37,276 bases of DNA from Candidatus Woesearchaeota archaeon (GCA_018302545.1 JAGVZM010000021.1:1-37276); one strand, 5' to 3'. Shown: positions 11,412 through 24,905, counted from the first letter of the stretch. Made by a program: numbers and translations. Notes: generated from the letters alone by a model not told the origin.

Positions 11412-11868
11412 AAAATAATTTCAAATATTCAGGACTACTCATAAAATCTTCTCTTTTAATTTCATCAATTATATAACTAACATAAGTATCCTCAACACCA
11501 AAGTCATTATCTAACCTTTCTAAAAAAACCTCAACATCCTTAACCTCTTTAAATATTCCATCTAACATAAAGTCATATCCATTATTAACTCTATATACAC
11601 TATTCAAACTCTTAGATAATAAAAGATGTTCCTTTAATCTATCCCTAAATTCTCTCTTAACTTTTAAAAATATAGTTGCCCTAATTGTAAAACCCATTTG
11701 AGAAAAATCAACTAAAGAAGTATACCTAGTAATTATTTTTCCTTCATAAGACTTTAATCTTTCATATATTGTAGATATAGGAATAGCCGTCTTTTTGCTC
11801 ATCATAGTCAAACTCTCTCTAGCATTTTTCCTTAAGTTTGCAATAATCAATAATTCCTTTTTATTCAT
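11401..11868 (-). CDS. Lrp/AsnC-family transcriptional regulator
   Basis: N-terminal HTH (NARESLTMMSKKTAIPISTIYERLKSYE) plus C-terminal ligand-binding (RAM-like) domain. Confidence 0.87.
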   Translation of the reverse strand: MNKKELLIIANLRKNARESLTMMSKKTAIPISTIYERLKSYEGKIITRYTSLVDFSQMGFTIRATIFLKVKREFRDRLKEHLLLSKSLNSVYRVNNGYDFMLDGIFKEVKDVEVFLERLDNDFGVEDTYVSYIIDEIKREDFMSSPEYLKLFFNF

Positions 11869-11944
11869 ATTAAATCACCAATATTAAGTTAGTTAAACTT
11901 CTACATAAAGAATCTTCTTAAAAATTATATAGCACCTTATAAGA

Positions 11945-12841
11945 ATGTTTATAAAAGATAAAATTAGCTATAATTTAAGTAAAAAGAGGAAAATGGAAAA
12001 AGTAATAGAATCATTTGATGGAACAAAAATATATTATCAGCATGAAAAAGGAAAAAGAAATAAAACTTTAATATTTCTTCATGGTATAGGAAGTAATTGG
12101 ACTGTATGGAAAGATTCTATAAATATATTTCAAAAAGAGGGTTTTTCAACAATAGGAATAGATTTAAGAGGCCATGGAAAGTCAGATTGGCCAGAAGATT
12201 TTAGTTTTTATAAAATATCAAACTTCTCTAGGGATATATTTGAAATAGTAAAAAAAGAAGGATTATCTAGATTTTCATTTATTGGGAATAGTTTAGGAGG
12301 AGCAGTAGCAATAAATTATTGTAGAAGATATAAAAAGAATACACCATTATCAATGGTTTTAGTAGAATGTGCAATATCATATCCCTTTCCACATAATAGA
12401 ATATTAAATCATAGCCCTTATTTTACAAATGTAATAAGGTATATAGCAGAGCATGATATAATAAAGGAAAAGCATTTCTTAGATTATGAAATAGATTTTT
12501 CAAAAAGTTCAATAATAAAAAATTCACATTTTTTAGCAAGTATCTTAAGTAATACCCCATTTCAAACAATAGTCGGAACATTAGATAACATAGAAAAATA
12601 TATTTTTAAGAATAAGCCAGGAATTATAAAAACAATTAAGAGTTTGAATATACCAATTTTGGCAATAGCAGGAAAAAAAGATGAGATAATACCTGTAAAA
12701 TTCGTGCAAGAGATAGCTAATCTAAACCCAAAAATAAAAATAAGAATATTAAAAAATGCAGATCACATGGTGATATTAAAGAATCCAAGAATAATAAACA
12801 AAGAAATTAACAAATTTTTTCTAGAAAACAAGTTAATTTAA
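11945..12841 (+). CDS. Alpha/beta hydrolase
   Basis: FLHGIGSNWTVW, DLRGHGKSD, nucleophile GNSLGG, AGKKDEIIP, ADHM; Met at 11993 is an alternative start. Confidence 0.93.
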   Translation: MFIKDKISYNLSKKRKMEKVIESFDGTKIYYQHEKGKRNKTLIFLHGIGSNWTVWKDSINIFQKEGFSTIGIDLRGHGKSDWPEDFSFYKISNFSRDIFEIVKKEGLSRFSFIGNSLGGAVAINYCRRYKKNTPLSMVLVECAISYPFPHNRILNHSPYFTNVIRYIAEHDIIKEKHFLDYEIDFSKSSIIKNSHFLASILSNTPFQTIVGTLDNIEKYIFKNKPGIIKTIKSLNIPILAIAGKKDEIIPVKFVQEIANLNPKIKIRILKNADHMVILKNPRIINKEINKFFLENKLI

Positions 12842-13293
12842 ATTGGGAATAATAATTTAATAATAAAGAAAGTAATAATTCCTAAAAAAATTCCTCCAAT
12901 AACATCATAAATATCATGTTTCTTTAAATAAATTCTCGACCAGCAAGTACCAAAAGCCAAAAGAAAGAATAAGATAGTTAATAAAATTTTATTAAAGTAT
13001 AAACTAAATAATATAGCCAAGAATAATACTCTAGCAGCATGCACACTTGGAAATGAAGAAGCATCAATTTTTTCTATAAAATTTCTATAAGCTTCATGAT
13101 TAGGTCTGCTCTTAAAATAAAAAGTCCTTATAAAAAGAGCAATAAGGAGAATAATAATTAAACCTATTAATAAAAATAAGGATAAATATAAATCAAAGAA
13201 AACAGAAACAATTATCAAAAATAAGAAAAAAACAAAAGACCCAAAAGAACTTAAATCTTGGATAGGATTAAAAGTTAAATTATAATTTTTCAT
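12838..13293 (-). CDS. PAP2-family membrane phosphatase
   Basis: KSRPNHE, PSVHAAR, SRIYLKKHDIYDVIGG motifs and TM helices. Confidence 0.88.
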   Translation of the reverse strand: MKNYNLTFNPIQDLSSFGSFVFFLFLIIVSVFFDLYLSLFLLIGLIIILLIALFIRTFYFKSRPNHEAYRNFIEKIDASSFPSVHAARVLFLAILFSLYFNKILLTILFFLLAFGTCWSRIYLKKHDIYDVIGGIFLGIITFFIIKLLFPI

Positions 13294-13348
13294 ATATTCT
13301 AGTTTAAGAAAGGGTAATATTTAAAAGTTTATAGTATTAACAAAATTT

Positions 13349-14038
13349 ATGAAATTAGAACAAGAATTGGATGGAATATCCATTGATATTAATTTAATAC
13401 CAGATAAACCAATTTTAGTATTTATACATGGAGCCCATGAACATAAAGATGTAGGTCACATAAGAGATACTGCAAATAAACTATATGAAGAAGAAATAGT
13501 TTCTGTTGTTCGTTATTCCTCTTCAAGAAATTGGGATGCTTGGATTGCAGCAGCTACATCTCCAATGGTGCAAATTAGTAGAATACAATCTTTTGATGGA
13601 AAAACATATGAACAATGTTTAGATGATCTAAGAAAGGTATTAGGTTTTATTCAAGAAAGGTTTAAGCCTAACGAATTATGGGTTAGTGGTTATTCTCATG
13701 GAGGAGGATTAGCAACTCTAATTAGTAAAGAAGTAGAAATACAAAGATTATTAGTATCTTTTCCTCAAATAGAACCTTTTACTAGGGACATTGGTTGTTA
13801 TCACGGATTTCCAGAAAAACAAGATTTTTTATATGCTATCTCTAAATATAATGGAAGATTAGAAGTTTTAAAATTGGAAAATGATGAAATGGTACCTTCA
13901 TCACAATCTCAAGAATTATATAACGCAGCAAAATCAATTAATAAATCATTAAAGGTAATTGAAGGAACAGACCACACATTAAAAGATAAAAGACTCCGTG
14001 AAAGATATGTTGAGTTACATAAAGAATTCTTCTCTTAA
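13349..14038 (+). CDS. Alpha/beta hydrolase / lipase-like
   Basis: FIHGAHEHKD; nucleophile elbow GYSHGGGLA; late TDHTLK. Confidence 0.75.
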   Translation: MKLEQELDGISIDINLIPDKPILVFIHGAHEHKDVGHIRDTANKLYEEEIVSVVRYSSSRNWDAWIAAATSPMVQISRIQSFDGKTYEQCLDDLRKVLGFIQERFKPNELWVSGYSHGGGLATLISKEVEIQRLLVSFPQIEPFTRDIGCYHGFPEKQDFLYAISKYNGRLEVLKLENDEMVPSSQSQELYNAAKSINKSLKVIEGTDHTLKDKRLRERYVELHKEFFS

Positions 14039-15534
14039 TTATATTTATTTTTAATATTAGATTGATAAGGGAATTTTCCAAACTCATGTAAAACTATTAA
14101 GGGCATAGCCTTTTTACCAATTCTATTATAAACTAATTTATAACCTTCATTTACATTTTGTAAAGTATTACAAATAGAATTAGAAAATTCTTGCTCAATT
14201 TTAGAGTTCTTTTTAGCACCTTGTCTAAGTTCAAAATCAATCCTTAATTTATGTTCATGATCACTACTAACAACATTCTTAATATGAAATTTTCCAGTTA
14301 CAAATTTAGAAATGTTCTTGTCTTTATAAATGGCTTCCTGAATATTTTCAGGATAAATAAGGAAAGCATGGAATTTCACAGAACCATCTTTTCTTCCAAC
14401 TACATATAAAAAAGACAGAGGTAAATTAAATTTCCTAGATATTCCAAATTCTAAAAGAATTTGTTGCATATTCCTATAAGTTATAACCCCTCCTATATCT
14501 TTTAAATTATAATTTATCATTGGTTCCGCATCTTCAGGTAAAATACTTGTAAAAATTAGTTCTCTATTTTTATTTTGGTAAGCAAATAAGCTTAAAGGAT
14601 ATTGAAATAACATAGGAGTGTCTTCAACATCCCCAAAAAGGGCTTTTTTAATCTTCTCATTAGTATCAGCAAGTCTCCTGATATAAACAGTATCATCAGT
14701 CTCTATCCCCCCAAGTATTCCAATATCAGAAGCTCCAAATCCAGACCTTATTTTCTCAGAATAAGTAATTTTTTGTATATAATCTCTCCAAGACTCAGGA
14801 AAGTCCTCACCACCAACTGCAAAGTTAATATCATGTTTTTTCCAAGGAAACTTAATCTCAATACCATAATCAACTAATTCTTTTACAAAAGGAGGATAAC
14901 CAGTAATAATAATCTGCTCAAATTGATTACCTATCTCATTAATTGTTTGTAATATTTCTTCTTTATTAGCCCCAATATTAATAACTGGACAATTTGATGA
15001 AGCAAAATCACTAAAAGTTATCCCCGTAACCCAACTACCTAAGATAAATCCATTAATAATCAAAGTTTTTTTATTAGTAATATTAAAATTCTCATCCAAA
15101 CCTATAGTTAGTCCAACCTTTCCAAAAGAATCTGCTTTATGAGATCTAACCCAATAACACTGCCTACCTGAATGACCAGAACTTTTAACTAACATACTAA
15201 TGTTATGATAATCTCCATCAACACAAAGATCATTAACTCTTTCAGCATTAAAAACATAATTATGCTTATCTGTTTCAGGAAGATTATTCATAAAATCTTC
15301 AACACTTTTTATAGATTTTGGATCAAAATTATTTTTTTCTAAGAATTTTTTATAATGTGGAATCCTTTGCGAGTTTTTACTAAAGGTATATAATAAATAT
15401 TTTCTACGTATTAATTCTAAATCATCAGGATCTTGCTTCAAAAAAAACTTTTTAAATTTTTTATAATCTTGAATCTTCTTCATAGTCAAATTATGTAAAA
15501 TAGAAGTAGGGATTAATCGTATAAGTCCTTGCAT
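14035..15534 (-). CDS. Adenylate-forming enzyme, phenylacetate-CoA ligase (PaaK)-like
   Basis: PaaK-like N-terminus (IPHYKKFLEKNNFDPKSIKSVEDFMNNLPETDK), SSGHSGRQ phosphate loop, FGASDIG, C-terminal lobe DHEHKLRIDFEL. Confidence 0.8.
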   Translation of the reverse strand: MQGLIRLIPTSILHNLTMKKIQDYKKFKKFFLKQDPDDLELIRRKYLLYTFSKNSQRIPHYKKFLEKNNFDPKSIKSVEDFMNNLPETDKHNYVFNAERVNDLCVDGDYHNISMLVKSSGHSGRQCYWVRSHKADSFGKVGLTIGLDENFNITNKKTLIINGFILGSWVTGITFSDFASSNCPVINIGANKEEILQTINEIGNQFEQIIITGYPPFVKELVDYGIEIKFPWKKHDINFAVGGEDFPESWRDYIQKITYSEKIRSGFGASDIGILGGIETDDTVYIRRLADTNEKIKKALFGDVEDTPMLFQYPLSLFAYQNKNRELIFTSILPEDAEPMINYNLKDIGGVITYRNMQQILLEFGISRKFNLPLSFLYVVGRKDGSVKFHAFLIYPENIQEAIYKDKNISKFVTGKFHIKNVVSSDHEHKLRIDFELRQGAKKNSKIEQEFSNSICNTLQNVNEGYKLVYNRIGKKAMPLIVLHEFGKFPYQSNIKNKYN

Positions 15535-15585
15535 AAATTTTAATGAACAAATAGGTTTTTAAAGGTTTCTTACATTAGATAATTA

Positions 15586-17172
15586 ATGGGAATAAAAGAA
15601 GTGAGAAGCTATTTTTCTAGTCACACAGGGGATGAAAAAAAATTATTAAAATTATTAAAATTTAGTTTTCTAAGTCTTGATAAATTAAAAAAAAATGGTT
15701 ACATAGGAGAATGTAAAGAATCAATAGATTACAATCAAATTATTAAAAACTCAAAATTTCCGGAAAAATCTCTACCAGAAAAATATGTAGTAAAAGAAAT
15801 TTTAAAAAATTATCAAAATGTAATTAATGTTGCACATCCTTTAACACAAGTAAATGTAAACCCTCCACCCACAAATTTATCAATAGTAATGTCATCAATC
15901 ACAGCAAAGTATAACGAAAATGGAGTTTGGGATTTTTTAGGACATTCTGCAGCAATATCAGAAATGCTTACAATTAGTATGTTAGCTGATCTTATTGGTT
16001 ATAATAAATCAAATACAGGAGGAATTTTTACATTTGGAGGAACAGCATCAAACCTTTATGCAGGAAGAATAGGAATAAGTAAAATATTAAAAAATTCTAG
16101 AGATAGTGGTCTTAGAAATGAAAAAGTAGTATTTATTTGTTCAGAATTAGCACATTATTCAACAGTAACAGCAGCAATTTGGTTAGGTGTTGGAAAAAAC
16201 AATATAATAACTATTCCATCAAATGAAAAAAATGAAATGGATTTAAAATATTTAGAGAATACCTTAAAAAAACTAAAAAAAGAAAAGGTTTCAATAGCTT
16301 GTATTTATGCAACAATAGGAACAACAGATGCATTTGGAATAGATCCTTTATTCAAAATAAATCAATTATGTAAAAAATTAAAGATTAATACACATATTCA
16401 TGCAGATGCAGTAATTGGTTGGGTTTACTTAACTTTTAAAGGTTATAACTTTGATTTAATTAAAGATAAAAAAATTGCATCTGAAATTAAGTATACCTAT
16501 AATCAAGTAGAACAAATAAAATATGCTGATTCAGTAGGAATAGACTTTCATAAGACAGGATGGACAAATTATTTATCAAGTTGCTTTATTTTAAAGAACA
16601 AAGAAGATTTTAAATTAATAGAGAGAAACAAAGAATCGACTCCTTATTTATTTCACGGTTCAGGTTACAAACCAGGAGAATACACTTTAGAAACAAGTAG
16701 GCCTAATTATGCTCAAAAAACATTAGCAAATATCCTAGGTTTAGGTAAAGAAGGATATAGAGAATTAGTTATACACTTATTTACAATAAGACAATATTTT
16801 GAAGAGCTATGTGAAAAAGAAGGAATTCTAGTATTAAATAAAAAAAATAACTTCTTTGTAACTGACTTAAGGTTATATCCTAATAAAGTTGAAAAAGATT
16901 ATTTCAAAAAAGAATTAGAAGAACAATTACCACTAAAAAAAATAGAGGAAATAAATGAATATAATAAAAAGATAGTAGAGATAATGGAAAAAAATTCAAA
17001 AAAAGAAGAGTCCACACTATTTTCATTAAGTAAAAAATATAAGTCTACAAAAAAAGGACATCCTATTTATTGTATTAAGTCATTTCCAATGAGCCCTTTT
17101 ATAGAAAAATATCATATGGACAAGGCATTAAAAGATCTTCTTAGAGCAAAAAAAGAAGTAACCCCTATATAG
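15586..17172 (+). CDS. PLP-dependent group II amino acid decarboxylase-like protein
   Basis: GGTASNLYAGR, HADAVIGW, Schiff-base lysine motif ADSVGIDFHKTGW, FHGSGYKPGEYTLETSRP. Confidence 0.9.
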   Translation: MGIKEVRSYFSSHTGDEKKLLKLLKFSFLSLDKLKKNGYIGECKESIDYNQIIKNSKFPEKSLPEKYVVKEILKNYQNVINVAHPLTQVNVNPPPTNLSIVMSSITAKYNENGVWDFLGHSAAISEMLTISMLADLIGYNKSNTGGIFTFGGTASNLYAGRIGISKILKNSRDSGLRNEKVVFICSELAHYSTVTAAIWLGVGKNNIITIPSNEKNEMDLKYLENTLKKLKKEKVSIACIYATIGTTDAFGIDPLFKINQLCKKLKINTHIHADAVIGWVYLTFKGYNFDLIKDKKIASEIKYTYNQVEQIKYADSVGIDFHKTGWTNYLSSCFILKNKEDFKLIERNKESTPYLFHGSGYKPGEYTLETSRPNYAQKTLANILGLGKEGYRELVIHLFTIRQYFEELCEKEGILVLNKKNNFFVTDLRLYPNKVEKDYFKKELEEQLPLKKIEEINEYNKKIVEIMEKNSKKEESTLFSLSKKYKSTKKGHPIYCIKSFPMSPFIEKYHMDKALKDLLRAKKEVTPI

Positions 17173-17221
17173 TTACAACAGTATAGAAAACAATATAAAC
17201 AATTAAAGATTATTAACCTGT

Positions 17222-19141
17222 ATGAGCGCTCCACTAGTTAGAAAAGACAATAGCAAACTAGAAGAAATTCTAAGAAGGTTTCCAGGATTAGAAAGAGTTC
17301 CAATATTAGGAAAAAGAATATTCACAAGAGAACAAGTCTTAGAAAGTGGATCATCAATAAAATTAGGAATTTCTCAAGGAGAGATTAGTAATCAAACCTT
17401 TGGAGCAATTATAAAATATGTTGCAGTCTCAAATCCAAATTTACTAAACGTTATTTTTGAAGGAATACAACTACCAGATTATGCTGTAGAAGCAGTAAAA
17501 AATAGGGGTTTTGAAATACCCAATCGTATTTCCATGCATATTGAAAATGAACACGCAAGAGATTGTATCGCCTATTATGTAGGAAGCCCAAATGGTTGGG
17601 GAAGTTTAGAAGATGAAAGAAGAATATTCCATAACTTAATTAATCATAGAAATGATGCTCTAACACCTTTTGAAGTTGGTTTTAATTCTAAAAGTGCATT
17701 CTCTACAATAAAATTAATGTTTTTGCTTGCTAGTAGTCATCCAAATACTGCATTCAGAAAAGGAGCACCAGCAGTAAACAGGAGAATGAATGGAGTCTTT
17801 GACTTAAGACATATTGAAGGGAGTAAAAATTATTCAGTATTAGAAATAGAATATTTTCCACAATTCAAACCGCATATTAACGGAGATCTTTATACATTAG
17901 GAGTTTTAGTAGCAGGAATAGATTCATTAGAAAGAGAAGGAATAAAAGTCACACAATTAATATCTCCCTTTGATGAGTCAACAGAACAAGTAAAGTTAGG
18001 CTTAAACCAAAGAGGAATTGAATTTTCATTAGAAGATTGTAGATTTGAACCAGGAACTCAAGTTCATACTTATAGATTTGATTGGAAAGAGGAAAGTAGA
18101 AGTTTTTGGAAACGTTTAGAATTAGTCTTCCGTGAATTAGACGAAAGAAAAAAATTCTCTCGTCTTGGAGTCCAAGAACAAGAATATGAAACAGCTGCCG
18201 AAACAATAGCTCAACAACAAGATAGTTTAGAATATGTTGAAAGAAAAGCATATGAAGAAACAGTTGCAAGACTTAAAGCAGAAACAGAAGCTGCAGAAGC
18301 AAGAGCAGAAAAAGAAAGAATAAGAGCAGACGCAGAAGAAGCTAAAAGAGGACTAGATGCACAAACAAGTACAGTTAATGATTTAGTAGATAGAGTCAAT
18401 TTAATAGCCCATGATGATGCTCATTTAGCTGAAGATTCTAAAGATGATCTAATCAATTACCTAACTAGATTAAGAAAAGAATTAGAAGAAGGAAAAATAA
18501 AACAACAAGAATTCGATATAGCTAATAACTTGATAGGCAGAGTAATTGAAAGACAACAAAGATTAATGAATAATGAAAGAAGTATCATGGGATTAGGAGC
18601 AGGAGATACAGAATTCTACTTAGATGAGATATTAGACCATTTAGTAGAAACTGTAAGAGTAGCTTATCCTAATTTAGATATAACTTACGATAAAGGAAGT
18701 TATAGGAAAAAAACAAAAGGAGATAAAGAGATATTAGGCGCTGCGATAGCAAATATAATAAAAAACGCAGCAGAGGCATCGCAACCAAAAAATGCAGATA
18801 AAGGAAAGTTATATGTCTATGATGGAGAAGAACAATACGGGGATCAACGTACTTTTGCAGTAATAGGTTGTTATCAAACAGGATCTGCTCCAGCAGAAAT
18901 ATTAGAAAGATTAAGTCGTGGTCAAAAAATAGAAAAAGAGCAAAGAGCAGTTGATACGAAAAAAACTAGTTATGGAAAGGGTTCTATAACAAGCCATAGA
19001 ATATTCACTAAACAACATAGAGGTTCATTAAGTTATAAGTTAATAGAAGATGTAAATCCACAAGATATAGAAGACATAGGATTTAATAGACAAGAATTTA
19101 TAGATCAAGGTTATAGAGTATTAACATTAGCCAAGTGGTAG
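17222..19141 (+). CDS. Cytosolic histidine-kinase-like protein with novel N-terminal sensor region
   Basis: Coiled coil, possible H-box region (VNLIAHDDAHLAEDSKDDLINYLTRL), N-box AAIANIIKNAAEAS, G2-like YGKGSITSHRIFTKQHRGSLSYK; no TM segment. Confidence 0.75.
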   Translation: MSAPLVRKDNSKLEEILRRFPGLERVPILGKRIFTREQVLESGSSIKLGISQGEISNQTFGAIIKYVAVSNPNLLNVIFEGIQLPDYAVEAVKNRGFEIPNRISMHIENEHARDCIAYYVGSPNGWGSLEDERRIFHNLINHRNDALTPFEVGFNSKSAFSTIKLMFLLASSHPNTAFRKGAPAVNRRMNGVFDLRHIEGSKNYSVLEIEYFPQFKPHINGDLYTLGVLVAGIDSLEREGIKVTQLISPFDESTEQVKLGLNQRGIEFSLEDCRFEPGTQVHTYRFDWKEESRSFWKRLELVFRELDERKKFSRLGVQEQEYETAAETIAQQQDSLEYVERKAYEETVARLKAETEAAEARAEKERIRADAEEAKRGLDAQTSTVNDLVDRVNLIAHDDAHLAEDSKDDLINYLTRLRKELEEGKIKQQEFDIANNLIGRVIERQQRLMNNERSIMGLGAGDTEFYLDEILDHLVETVRVAYPNLDITYDKGSYRKKTKGDKEILGAAIANIIKNAAEASQPKNADKGKLYVYDGEEQYGDQRTFAVIGCYQTGSAPAEILERLSRGQKIEKEQRAVDTKKTSYGKGSITSHRIFTKQHRGSLSYKLIEDVNPQDIEDIGFNRQEFIDQGYRVLTLAKW

Positions 19142-19654
19142 TTATCTTCTAACAGATCTTCTAGAATTAATAGGAATTTCTTTGCCCCTATATATATCCA
19201 TAATCTTATTGAACAATAAAGTTTTATAAGTTTCAGGATGATAACCAATAGAGCTTCTTAGTGAAGGAATCTCCATAGCATAAACATCAAATCCCCCTTG
19301 TGTATAAGGTAGAGCATTTAAAATATAAGGTTGATCAATTTCACTTTTCAATGTAGTGTTAATTAAAACTCTAGAAAGACCTCTCAAATGACCATTTTTC
19401 TTCCATTCAACTAAATTTCTAAACACATCTCTTCCAGAAAAATCAATATCTTCTAGTCTAAAACAAATATCTAACAAAACTATATCTTCAATTTTAAGAG
19501 TTAATTCCTGCCATTCAGAAAGAGATAAAGCTTTCTTAAGATTTACTTGAGTATATCCACAATTAAGATCATCAACTACAGAAAGAACATCCTTCTTAAT
19601 TTCAGAAGAATCATCACAAACAACTATTAAGCCCTTTTCATATTGATTGCTCAT
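19142..19654 (-). CDS. Receiver-like protein 1 (REC-like, no output domain)
   Basis: VVCDDSSE acidic pair, DIVLLDI putative phospho-Asp, LINTTL, GFDVYAM, C-terminal SVRR. Confidence 0.72.
   Translation of the reverse strand: MSNQYEKGLIVVCDDSSEIKKDVLSVVDDLNCGYTQVNLKKALSLSEWQELTLKIEDIVLLDICFRLEDIDFSGRDVFRNLVEWKKNGHLRGLSRVLINTTLKSEIDQPYILNALPYTQGGFDVYAMEIPSLRSSIGYHPETYKTLLFNKIMDIYRGKEIPINSRRSVRR
19274..19370. repeat. Near-identical coding block shared with 21247-21343
   Basis: First 61 nt differ at one position; encodes PYILNALPYTQGGFDVYAM in both. Confidence 0.85.
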
Positions 19655-19659
19655 TTTAA

Positions 19660-20280
19660 TTATCTTTTAACTATCTTATTCCCATTAACAGGGTTAGCTA
19701 TTCCAGAATATATACCCTCAACAGTACCTGATAAGATAGATTCATAACTATTAAGGTCTAGTACACCTTGTGTTGCTTGCCTTCTAAGGTTAGCTGTCCT
19801 CTTTAAAGTGTAAACATTAAAACCACTTTGTTCATAATTCGGAGAACTTAAAACACGAGGATCACTTAAATGAGATATTAAAGTGGTATTAAGTAATAAC
19901 TTAGTTAGACCAGATAATTTTCCATCCTTTTTCCACCTAACTAAGTAAGTAAAAACATCTAAACCATTATATTGTGTGGGTCTATAAACAACATGAGTAG
20001 GACTTCCTTCTCTACCATCAACAGGCAATAATTCATAGTCTTGCACAACGTCATCTGGAAGAGCAGAACTTCTAAGATCTACAGCATCTTCCAAATTAAC
20101 ATCTAAAACAACTAAATCATTCTGCGTAATTGCAGTATTTTCCCAAAAAACTAAAGAAAGCAATTCCTTAATAGGCAATTCTTGATAACCTAAATCTTTA
20201 CTATAAGCAACTTTTCTAATTACATCTAAAGCATCTCTTCTATCATCAATTGCCAGCAATCTACCTCTTAAATCATCCAA
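19660..20280 (-). CDS. Receiver-like protein 2
   Basis: LAIDDRRDA, DLVVLDV, LLNTTL, GFNVYTLK, C-terminal KIVKR; TTG start with GGGGTG upstream. Confidence 0.72.
   Translation of the reverse strand: MDDLRGRLLAIDDRRDALDVIRKVAYSKDLGYQELPIKELLSLVFWENTAITQNDLVVLDVNLEDAVDLRSSALPDDVVQDYELLPVDGREGSPTHVVYRPTQYNGLDVFTYLVRWKKDGKLSGLTKLLLNTTLISHLSDPRVLSSPNYEQSGFNVYTLKRTANLRRQATQGVLDLNSYESILSGTVEGIYSGIANPVNGNKIVKR
19882..19971. repeat. Near-identical coding block shared with 20555-20644
   Basis: 90-nt aligned block with few mismatches; encodes GLDVF.YLVRWK.DGKLSGLTKLLLNTTL in both. Confidence 0.8.
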
Positions 20281-20326
20281 CTTACAACACCCCTTACGAT
20301 TAAAAAAACAAAAGATTTTAAAAAAA

Positions 20327-20989
20327 TTATCTTCTAACTACTCTTCCACCATTAACGAAAGGTGCAGTGTTCTTATAAATTCTTTCAACCATGTCTGATA
20401 AACTACTTTGATAACTTTGAACATCTAAGGCACTACCTGTCTTTACTCTCTGTTCATGAGGAGCAGTATTTCTCCTTAAAGTATAAACATCAAATCCACC
20501 TTGTGAATATTTAGGAGTGTTTAAAACATCAGGAGTTGTCAAACTAGTTTGTAGAGTAGTATTAAGTAATAGCTTAGTTAGACCAGATAATTTTCCATCA
20601 TTTTTCCACCTAACTAAATATTTAAAAACATCTAAACCATTATAATCTACAGTAGGTCTAACCTCAGAGACAACTGCAGGATAGTCAACTATCTCTCCAA
20701 TAGTATCAGGGTCATCTAATCTAACTTCATGCACATCTTCAGGTGCATTTAGATCTAATTCAACTTCTAATACAGGTTTTTTACGATCTTGAGCATGTTT
20801 AAAACTAATATCCAAAATAACCAAATCATTTTGTTTAAGATCGACATTATTCCAAGTTACTAATTCCAAAAGTTGATCAACTGGTAATTCAGCATAACCT
20901 AATCCTTTACTTTTTGCAACTGCCTCAATTACTTGTAATGCATCCTTACTATCATCAACTGCTATTAATCTTCCTTCAAACCTACCCAT
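20327..20989 (-). CDS. Receiver-like protein 3
   Basis: IAVDDSKDA, DLVILDI, LLNTTL, GFDVYTLR, C-terminal RVVRR; strong GAGGAGGT upstream. Confidence 0.72.
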   Translation of the reverse strand: MGRFEGRLIAVDDSKDALQVIEAVAKSKGLGYAELPVDQLLELVTWNNVDLKQNDLVILDISFKHAQDRKKPVLEVELDLNAPEDVHEVRLDDPDTIGEIVDYPAVVSEVRPTVDYNGLDVFKYLVRWKNDGKLSGLTKLLLNTTLQTSLTTPDVLNTPKYSQGGFDVYTLRRNTAPHEQRVKTGSALDVQSYQSSLSDMVERIYKNTAPFVNGGRVVRR

Positions 20990-20994
20990 TTTAA

Positions 20995-21855
20995 TTACCT
21001 CCTCACAATTCTAGTACCATTAATAGGTCTAACACTTTTATCTCTTATAATTCTATTAATATAACTAGCTAATTTAGGACCATGCCTAGCAAAATCAGTC
21101 ACATCTATTTCTCTTTCTTTTTTAGATTCTGATTCTCTTCCTCCAAGACCAAGAGCATCACCAATCACACCTGCAACCACATCTAATAAACCCCCTATAT
21201 TTTTAGATTCTTGTCTTCTCTCATAAGGTTGTTCTCTTTCTCTTTGCATAGCATAAACATCAAATCCCCCTTGCGTATAAGGTAGAGCATTTAAAATATA
21301 AGGTTGAGTAATTTCACTTTGTAAAGTGGTAGCAATTAAAACTTTAGATAATCCTTCTAATTTCCCTTGTTTTCTAGCCTCAACTAGTCCACTAAAAACA
21401 TTTCTACCATCAAACTGAACTTTATCATGATAAACCATCTCAGGTATTTCTTCATGTCTTTCAATCTCTCCTATAGCACTATAAACTGGAACTGTAGATG
21501 CAGGAACAACAACACCTTTTTTTGTTGTATCTTCTGCAAAACCAAAGTTTATATCCAAAAGCAATAAATCCAATGGATGCATTCCTAAGTTTTCCCAATA
21601 AGGTAAATTCAAAACCCATCTTCCATTAGTAGTAGGTTTAACCATTGTCCTAGGCAAATCAAGCCCTTCAAAATCATAACCAGTATCATTCATTAAAGTT
21701 CTAGTTAATTCAACATTGGTTTTATCATCATCAAGCATGAAAATTTTAACATAATGCCCATCTATAACTAACTTATCCTTTTTACCAGAAATTGGTTCAA
21801 TAACTGAACGATTTCCCCTTGCTAAATCTTTAGGATCATATTCATTTATTCCCAT
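20995..21855 (-). CDS. Receiver-like protein 4 with C-terminal extension
   Basis: FMLDDDKTN, LLLLDI, LIATTL, GFDVYAM, extra ~80-aa C-terminal region, C-terminal RIVRR. Confidence 0.72.
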   Translation of the reverse strand: MGINEYDPKDLARGNRSVIEPISGKKDKLVIDGHYVKIFMLDDDKTNVELTRTLMNDTGYDFEGLDLPRTMVKPTTNGRWVLNLPYWENLGMHPLDLLLLDINFGFAEDTTKKGVVVPASTVPVYSAIGEIERHEEIPEMVYHDKVQFDGRNVFSGLVEARKQGKLEGLSKVLIATTLQSEITQPYILNALPYTQGGFDVYAMQREREQPYERRQESKNIGGLLDVVAGVIGDALGLGGRESESKKEREIDVTDFARHGPKLASYINRIIRDKSVRPINGTRIVRR

Positions 21856-21939: not shown

Positions 21940-22374
21940 TTACAAATAAAAATCATCAAATGTAAATTTTTTAACCTGATTTTTAATTATATCAAATCTA
22001 TTCTTCATACTCTTAACTTTGCTAGATAATATAGGTAAATTATTATTCAATCTTAAATTAATTTCAGAATAGCCAGGTTTTGTTTTATAAAATTTGAGAA
22101 TATCTTTAATTATCTTATCAAGATCATCACAAAGATTAATTAAAGTATCAAATTGGTTATGATTGTCTAAACCAGTAACATATTTATCTTTAAGTTCATC
22201 TAAATTCTCTTTTAATTCACTAATTTTAGAAACAAAATCTCTTTCCAATTTATCAATCATCCAAACATAACTAGTTAAGAATCTCTCGTTCTGCTTACTT
22301 TCAACCATAGATTTAAGTTCATTCAAATTTCTTTCAAATTCATCAATAAGAGAACCAACTTTAACAATGGACAT
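21940..22374 (-). CDS. Coiled-coil hypothetical protein
   Basis: 144-aa helical ORF, no recognised family. Confidence 0.55.
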   Translation of the reverse strand: MSIVKVGSLIDEFERNLNELKSMVESKQNERFLTSYVWMIDKLERDFVSKISELKENLDELKDKYVTGLDNHNQFDTLINLCDDLDKIIKDILKFYKTKPGYSEINLRLNNNLPILSSKVKSMKNRFDIIKNQVKKFTFDDFYL

Positions 22375-23962: not shown

Positions 23963-24859
23963 TTATTCTTTCAATCTCATTTTAAGTTCATCAATACAAA
24001 CTTTATCAATTTCTACTTTTCTTAAAGAAGTAAATACATTCCTAAAATAGGTAGCATCCTGTTTGCCTAAACCATAAGGCAATTCATAATGTTCTTCCCA
24101 TTGAAAAAAATTTCTAACAGCATCTAAATCATTAAATTTTCTAAAAGGATCTCCACCAGTTTGCACAAGCATTAAACCATTAGGTAAATATAAAGGTCTA
24201 ACTTCCCGCTCTTGATATCTCCAAACCATAGGAACTCTAACCCCAATACTTTCAAGAACCAATTTATCCAAAATTCTATTTCCTTTCTCACAAGTTTCCT
24301 GTAGATTATGTGCAAGAGAAGCCAATATTACTTCTCTAGTAAACTCTTCACCTGTTAATTCTCCAGAGTTATATTTAGCAACAAGGTCTTCTTGAAATGG
24401 TCTTAAGTATTTAGACAAGGCTAACATAACTAAATAAGCAGGAGACCTTTGTAAAGCGAATAAGACAAATCTATTATAGTTATGAACATAATCTGCAACA
24501 ATATTCCCTTTATGATCTGGTAGGCAAGCTTCTAAACCTACCTCAGAAAAATAAAAAACAGGAGCAGTAAATTTTCTATCATTTTTAATTCTACCATCCT
24601 CACCTATTTCCATATTAGGAGTAGCAGCACATATTAAAAGATTGGGATGTCTTTGAGGCAGTCTATCTCCTAAGTAACTATTCCAAGTATCCACATCACT
24701 AAAAAAACTAATAGGTTTAAGTATTCTTTCAGCAACATCTCTTAATTGTGAAAATCTTTCTTTATCTAGAATTTCTGAATATCTTTTATCTAATCTAGTT
24801 CTTACTAATTCTAATTTTTCTATAAGACTTCCAACATCTCCATGATATACTATAGACAT
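23963..24859 (-). CDS. Hypothetical protein
   Basis: Long ORF with no recognised family; start MSIVYHGD preferred. Confidence 0.6.
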   Translation of the reverse strand: MSIVYHGDVGSLIEKLELVRTRLDKRYSEILDKERFSQLRDVAERILKPISFFSDVDTWNSYLGDRLPQRHPNLLICAATPNMEIGEDGRIKNDRKFTAPVFYFSEVGLEACLPDHKGNIVADYVHNYNRFVLFALQRSPAYLVMLALSKYLRPFQEDLVAKYNSGELTGEEFTREVILASLAHNLQETCEKGNRILDKLVLESIGVRVPMVWRYQEREVRPLYLPNGLMLVQTGGDPFRKFNDLDAVRNFFQWEEHYELPYGLGKQDATYFRNVFTSLRKVEIDKVCIDELKMRLKE

Positions 24860-24905
24860 ATCAAAAAAGAAGAACAAAAAATTTTATAAGTTTATCATTC
24901 CATTA

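Follow-up and report, generated by a model that had tools for sequence, protein, structure and literature searches.

Accounts of DPANN archaea usually treat two-component signaling as absent or as scattered. Finished Nanoarchaeota genomes hold no two-component genes, and in unfinished genomes these genes are present in 5 of 8 DPANN phyla (Galperin 2018, PMC5847659). Response regulators that consist of a receiver domain only (REC-only) are common in archaea, and their genes mostly lie outside conserved neighborhoods (PMC5847659). A different kind of system has been proposed for quorum sensing in the Candidate Phyla Radiation (CPR) and DPANN, where homologs of CqsA, LuxI or PpyS lie beside kinases (Bernard 2020, PMC7567580). 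Here we analyze a 37,276-nucleotide stretch of DNA from Candidatus Woesearchaeota archaeon (GCA_018302545.1 JAGVZM010000021.1:1-37276; hereafter the window), in which positions 17222-21855 encode a histidine kinase (HK)-like protein and four receiver-like proteins that lack output domains. We find that these proteins are almost certainly a genuine, highly diverged two-component system. We also find that kinase, receivers, one or more hydrolases, a ligase and often a decarboxylase very probably make up one conserved module in archaea of the Woesearchaeota/Nanoarchaeota type. No published report of this module was found in the literature searched. Like the archaeal systems with stand-alone receivers, the window system pairs a predicted cytosolic kinase with REC-only regulators of the sort thought to act by protein contacts (PMC5847659). 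It differs from them in that its kinase and receivers recur with a fixed set of enzymes, no PAS or GAF sensor is recognized in the kinase, and the receivers of the window lack the switch Lys. It shares with the synthase and sensor-kinase pairs of PMC7567580 a small-molecule enzyme gene adjoining a sensor kinase, but its kinase is soluble and is accompanied by a PaaK-like ligase, hydrolases and a decarboxylase; no PaaK-like ligase is named in the portion of that report considered here.

The open reading frames (ORFs) proposed by a first-pass annotation of the sequence were recovered at the same positions and sizes. The kinase gene (639 aa; 17222-19141, plus strand) converges on four minus-strand genes, and its stop codon abuts that of the first of them with 0 bases between. 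Receiver 1 (170 aa; 19142-19654) carries D14, D15, D62 and T100 and ends in the tail PINSRRSVRR. Receiver 2 (206 aa; 19660-20280) has a TTG start with GGGGTG upstream and the tail NPVNGNKIVKR, and receiver 3 (220 aa; 20327-20989) has the tail FVNGGRVVRR; both have a long loop between beta3 and alpha3. Receiver 4 (286 aa; 20995-21855) has an N-terminal extension, an insert before the last helix and the tail PINGTRIVRR. The motifs first read by eye, namely the acidic pair, the Asp, TT(L) and GF(D/N)VY, are all present, and the proposed shared C-terminal tail is borne out by a P-[IVL]-N tail motif that several relatives share. Each protein is a single receiver domain with loops and a short basic tail, and a Pfam search up to E 10 agreed with the annotation that none of the four has an output domain. 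The four are paralogous, with 33-46% identity to receiver 1, and form a single clade (support 99/97; tree of 19 family members); therefore they were duplicated within this lineage. In relatives, one or two receiver genes adjoin the kinase.

Evidence that these proteins are receivers comes from structure, fold search and profiles. The AlphaFold2 model of receiver 1 (pLDDT 88.1, pTM 0.85) has strands alternating with helices, and its top 50 Foldseek matches in the PDB are all receiver-type domains; the other three copies are assigned the REC fold by their homology to this one. We built family profiles from relatives found by genome searches. The receiver profile has 34 PDB matches (E 3.5e-5), all of them named response regulators except one designed receiver-like protein. 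All four window receivers keep an intact acidic pair, phospho-Asp and Thr, residues that are conserved in homologs, as the annotation had anticipated: in a 20-member family alignment the first acidic residue is Asp or Glu in 20/20, the second is Asp in 18/20 and Asn in the other 2, while 20/20 have the phospho-Asp and 19/20 the beta4 Thr/Ser.

The kinase is similarly recognizable through its family. As a single sequence, the window kinase gave only noise against PDB sequences and found no relative when used as a query of genome contigs. The kinase profile (12 members) matches PDB sensor kinases (E 7.3e-23) across the half containing the dimerization and histidine phosphotransfer (DHp) and GHKL ATPase domains (18380-19138), HATPase_c is matched by 10 of the 12 members (best 1.2e-14), and a fold search supports this half as a kinase. 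His397 and Asn515 are invariant in 17/17 aligned family members. The H-box His397-Asp398 (IAHDDAH; 18410-18415) has the Asp found after the His in most members, and the window protein keeps N-box Asn511/Asn515 and the G2 GxG (Gly587). The annotation's identification of the 639-aa protein as a histidine kinase is thus upheld by the profile match and His397. Its cytosolic placement agrees with our prediction that the kinase is soluble, because no membrane-spanning stretch is found by hydropathy (maximum over 19 residues, 1.14). Upstream of the catalytic half lies a long signaling helix or coiled-coil linker (about residues 314-393; 18160-18400), seen as a continuous helix at 314-422 in the model and as an Ala/Glu-rich stretch (for example, ADAAEARAE) in relatives. 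The N-terminal half (about residues 1-326; 17222-18200), a type A sensor described from the family alignment and a low-confidence model, is a possible ligand-binding domain, a role that the annotation overlooked. Pfam finds no match, V4R included, in this half of the window kinase, and sensor-half profiles have no match in the PDB.

The conserved unit is larger than the kinase and receivers. The ORFs at 17222-21855 stand as first described, but the unit spans 11945 to 21855, and the enzyme genes upstream had been overlooked. It begins with alpha/beta hydrolase A (298 aa; 11945-12841, plus strand), a member of the module's hydrolase family (1.1e-95 with a profile built without the window copy, 1e-123 with the family hidden Markov model that includes it; Abhydrolase_1, 4.9e-19). 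A PAP2-family membrane phosphatase (151 aa; 12838-13293, minus strand; PAP2, 6.8e-14) lies within the unit in the window, followed by alpha/beta hydrolase B (229 aa; 13349-14038, plus strand; Hydrolase_4, 3.2e-10, and a match to its family model). Next is an adenylate-forming ligase of the phenylacetate-CoA ligase (PaaK) group (499 aa; 14035-15534, minus strand). The ligase family profile matches PDB phenylacetate-CoA ligase (4r1l, 2y4o; E 5e-13), and the alignment shows SSGHSG, GASD and GRxDG motifs and an invariant C-terminal Lys495. As in PaaK, GRxDG and the C-terminal Lys are present; unlike the PaaK group, the window ligase of about 500 aa has a family-specific C-terminus. Between ligase and kinase lies a pyridoxal phosphate-dependent amino-acid decarboxylase (528 aa; 15586-17172, plus strand; Pyridoxal_deC, 5.2e-28).

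These enzymes recur with the kinase in other genomes. We surveyed 383 genomes of the class, mostly incomplete metagenome-assembled genomes, and found the ligase in 22. A kinase adjoins it in 19 of the 22. This count includes genome G112, where only the sensor half identifies the neighbor, and G078, whose type C kinase is recognized through its homologs. The three remaining genomes are G062 (where kinase and ligase both sit at contig ends), G053 (an HD-domain protein instead) and G130 (neither). Assuming a generous 5 kinases per genome and ignoring relatedness, the chance of such adjacency is about 1e-23. Likewise, the ligase is present in 12/12 genomes with a full-length kinase relative versus 10/371 others (p about 4e-17, with no correction for relatedness among species). 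Stand-alone receivers also recur with the kinase in related genomes, as a neighborhood search suggested by the annotation revealed. An alpha/beta hydrolase of one family, hydrolase A in the window, lies within a few kilobases of the ligase in most loci, and the second hydrolase is seen only where the kinase is of the window's type (the window, L035, L036 and L115). The place of the window decarboxylase is held by PanD in L034, L035, L036 and L115 (5.2e-43 in relatives); PanD was searched for in the window genome and is absent. We rejected PanD as a marker of the module, as it adjoins the ligase in only 3 of the 22 sampled genomes (and in L115) and occurs also in ligase-free genomes.

The ligase tree further ties the enzymes to the sensor. 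All five ligases of type A kinase loci, together with that of G112, whose kinase has a type A sensor, form one clade (100/99) that covers at least three taxonomic families, and type B and type C ligases from these families are placed outside it. Ligase clade thus largely predicts kinase type. Given this clade across families, enzymes and sensor have been inherited or transferred together, and the module is apparently mobile. Gene adjacency alone does not prove function.

In the window genome (1.16 Mb, 95.6% complete), a kinase profile search, with HATPase matches checked, found no second histidine kinase; the other four HATPase matches are GyrB, TopoVI-B and two HATPase_c_3 proteins. As this is the sole histidine kinase found in the genome, one kinase serving several receivers is the natural reading. 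The genome also holds at least five further stand-alone receiver genes (L109 5325-5828 and 6489-7118; L110 4738-5295 and 5366-5740; L111 1-473; best Response_reg, 2.3e-10), and no kinase is recognized near these five, which may be additional partners for the window kinase. The annotation had called two-component genes scarce in DPANN archaea. This is partly right; set against it are these extra receiver genes and the spread across DPANN phyla noted above. Among nine other sampled genomes of the same taxonomic family, none has this system, so the window system was likely gained by transfer or lost in its family relatives.

Based on these data, we lean modestly toward a reading in which the cytosolic kinase would sense a small molecule that the neighboring enzymes produce or use up and signal through output-less receivers. 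The ligase, hydrolases and decarboxylase would synthesize or turn over a small compound derived from a carboxylate, and the N-terminal half of the kinase would bind this compound or a precursor in the cytosol. Binding would alter the autophosphorylation or phosphatase state of His397, and phosphate would move from His397 to the receiver Asp. The receivers would then work by protein-protein contacts, perhaps via their shared basic tail, instead of through an attached output domain, and the four copies may compete for the single kinase. The parts of this proposal differ in strength. Phosphate transfer from the window kinase to the window receivers is probable, and it is plausible, if a little short of probable, that the ligand would be drawn from the module's own chemistry. 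If the kinase does read this chemistry, the module gives a concrete handle on sensing in these archaea and a candidate small-molecule signal in microbes thought to be host-dependent. With respect to quorum sensing, in which synthase and receptor are encoded together, the enzymes adjoin the kinase, which is adjacency of genes only; a true autoinducer circuit is possible. More speculatively, and we think rather doubtfully, the module could be a self-contained signaling circuit of ultra-small archaea, in which an amide- or thioester-derived signal of a new class would be built by the enzymes, read by a soluble kinase and relayed by the duplicated output-less receivers. If so, the occurrence of the same ligase group beside seven-transmembrane (7TM) kinases in Patescibacteria would point to a signaling chemistry common to small-genome archaea and bacteria.

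Several observations weigh against the proposed sensing and signaling. On the sensor side, the modeled domain (helices followed by a beta-beta-alpha-beta-alpha-beta-beta domain; pTM 0.42) is too uncertain for its fold to be named. The V4R small-molecule-binding match (2.8e-4, under the Pfam cut-off), which speaks for ligand binding by the sensor half, occurs in the sensor half of a single relative, which is of the other sensor type, type B, and type A and type B sensors are only weakly similar (hhalign probability 51%). That match is the one likeness to the V4R sensors PoxR, MopR and DmpR, which are sigma54 activators, whereas the window protein is a kinase in which V4R is undetected. The five other receivers of the genome could be the true kinase partners. 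Colocalization could also reflect a kinase that controls the enzymes rather than one that senses their product. On the catalytic side, the active site that the annotation had read in the receivers holds for the acidic pair, Asp and Thr, but the Lys after beta5 that completes it is Ile in receiver 1 and Arg in receivers 2-4, and is Lys in 16/16 relatives. In receiver 2 a Lys sits one residue before the Arg. The Asp of the G1 box (DxGxG) is absent in the window kinase and is replaced by Gln, Asn or Ser in almost every member of its family, the box being clearly canonical only in L107. The missing G1 Asp is a known kind of divergence and no ground to exclude kinase identity. With both the switch Lys and the G1 Asp lost, normal switching is not to be assumed, and activity could be altered.

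The same two-component system might instead respond to an unrelated cue, with the receivers regulating the ligase, hydrolases and decarboxylase by contact, for example in an envelope-lipid or surface-modification pathway. Tight gene adjacency fits such regulation equally well, and hints of an envelope role come from PAP2 in the window, from genes of the phosphatidylserine decarboxylase family that neighbor the ligase in L070 and L107, and from a protein, its N-terminus resembling a membrane anchor, that recurs next to the receivers in several relatives. However, no part of the receivers is known to dock onto enzymes, and the tracking of ligase clade by sensor type is more natural if the sensor reads ligase chemistry, even though the pattern would be the same if the cluster were transferred as a block. 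We consider this control of the enzymes, the main rival to sensing, unlikely, if worth keeping in view. The window copy might also be drifting from phosphotransfer, its receivers locked or acting as phosphorylation-independent docking proteins and its kinase as a scaffold or phosphatase. The loss of the switch Lys in 4/4 window receivers, the missing G1 Asp and the lack of any family match for the window kinase alone are in keeping with drift; on the other hand, the remaining catalytic residues are intact in both partners, and four intact receiver copies have been amplified and retained. Receivers with Lys replaced by Arg can still be phosphorylated. Taken together, we judge drift to be improbable. 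The window offers a natural receiver set with the switch Lys replaced. Chance resemblance is a negligible prospect: although single-sequence searches with the five proteins gave no useful match in Pfam or NCBIfam, so that Pfam misses the two-component unit in the window, it is refuted by the receiver model, by the fold and profile searches and by the conservation of catalytic residues.

Two analogies for the enzyme set were considered and set aside. The luxCDE fatty-acid reductase genes pair an adenylating ligase with an alpha/beta hydrolase. The module is unlike them in that the LuxE match is not significant (0.26) and no luciferase or LuxC is recognized in the window's unit, and a LuxC-like look in L107 is unsupported by Pfam; we therefore rejected a lux-type operon. 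An analogy with photoactive yellow protein, in which a ligase would load a chromophore, was dropped, as no such protein is recognized in the window's unit (PMC12826048).

A number of minor observations accompany these results. Adjoining the receivers are a 144-aa ORF predicted to form a coiled coil (21940-22374) and a 304-aa ORF (23963-24877), with no significant family match. The recurring protein with a hydrophobic N-terminus is found near module receivers or kinase at L035 11164-11964, L037 6598-7452, L069 8963-9853, L103 12565-13356, L104 13756-14712 and L115 5483-6298; its L035 and L069 copies have no Pfam match. Beside the kinase in L107 lies a gene (11666-13444) whose N-terminal part gives an NAD-binding match (1.7e-4) and whose second half, judged by eye, includes a receiver-like segment. 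At L108 9935-11893, an HD-domain protein (HD_5, 1.2e-10) with a long unrecognized N-terminus replaces the kinase beside the ligase. Elsewhere in the window genome, a 306-aa ORF resembling a homing endonuclease (L194 2294-3214) overlaps the start of gyrB. Lastly, a related ligase lies beside a histidine kinase, with a 7TM sensor in those tested, in several Patescibacteria and one unclassified bacterium, which we regard as a lead rather than a test of the module. Patescibacteria loci such as L124, L127, L140 and L155 combine the PaaK-like ligase and a histidine kinase (HisKA_7TM, 7e-12 in L124) with ThiF-like and nitroreductase-like genes, and several of these loci also hold stand-alone receivers.

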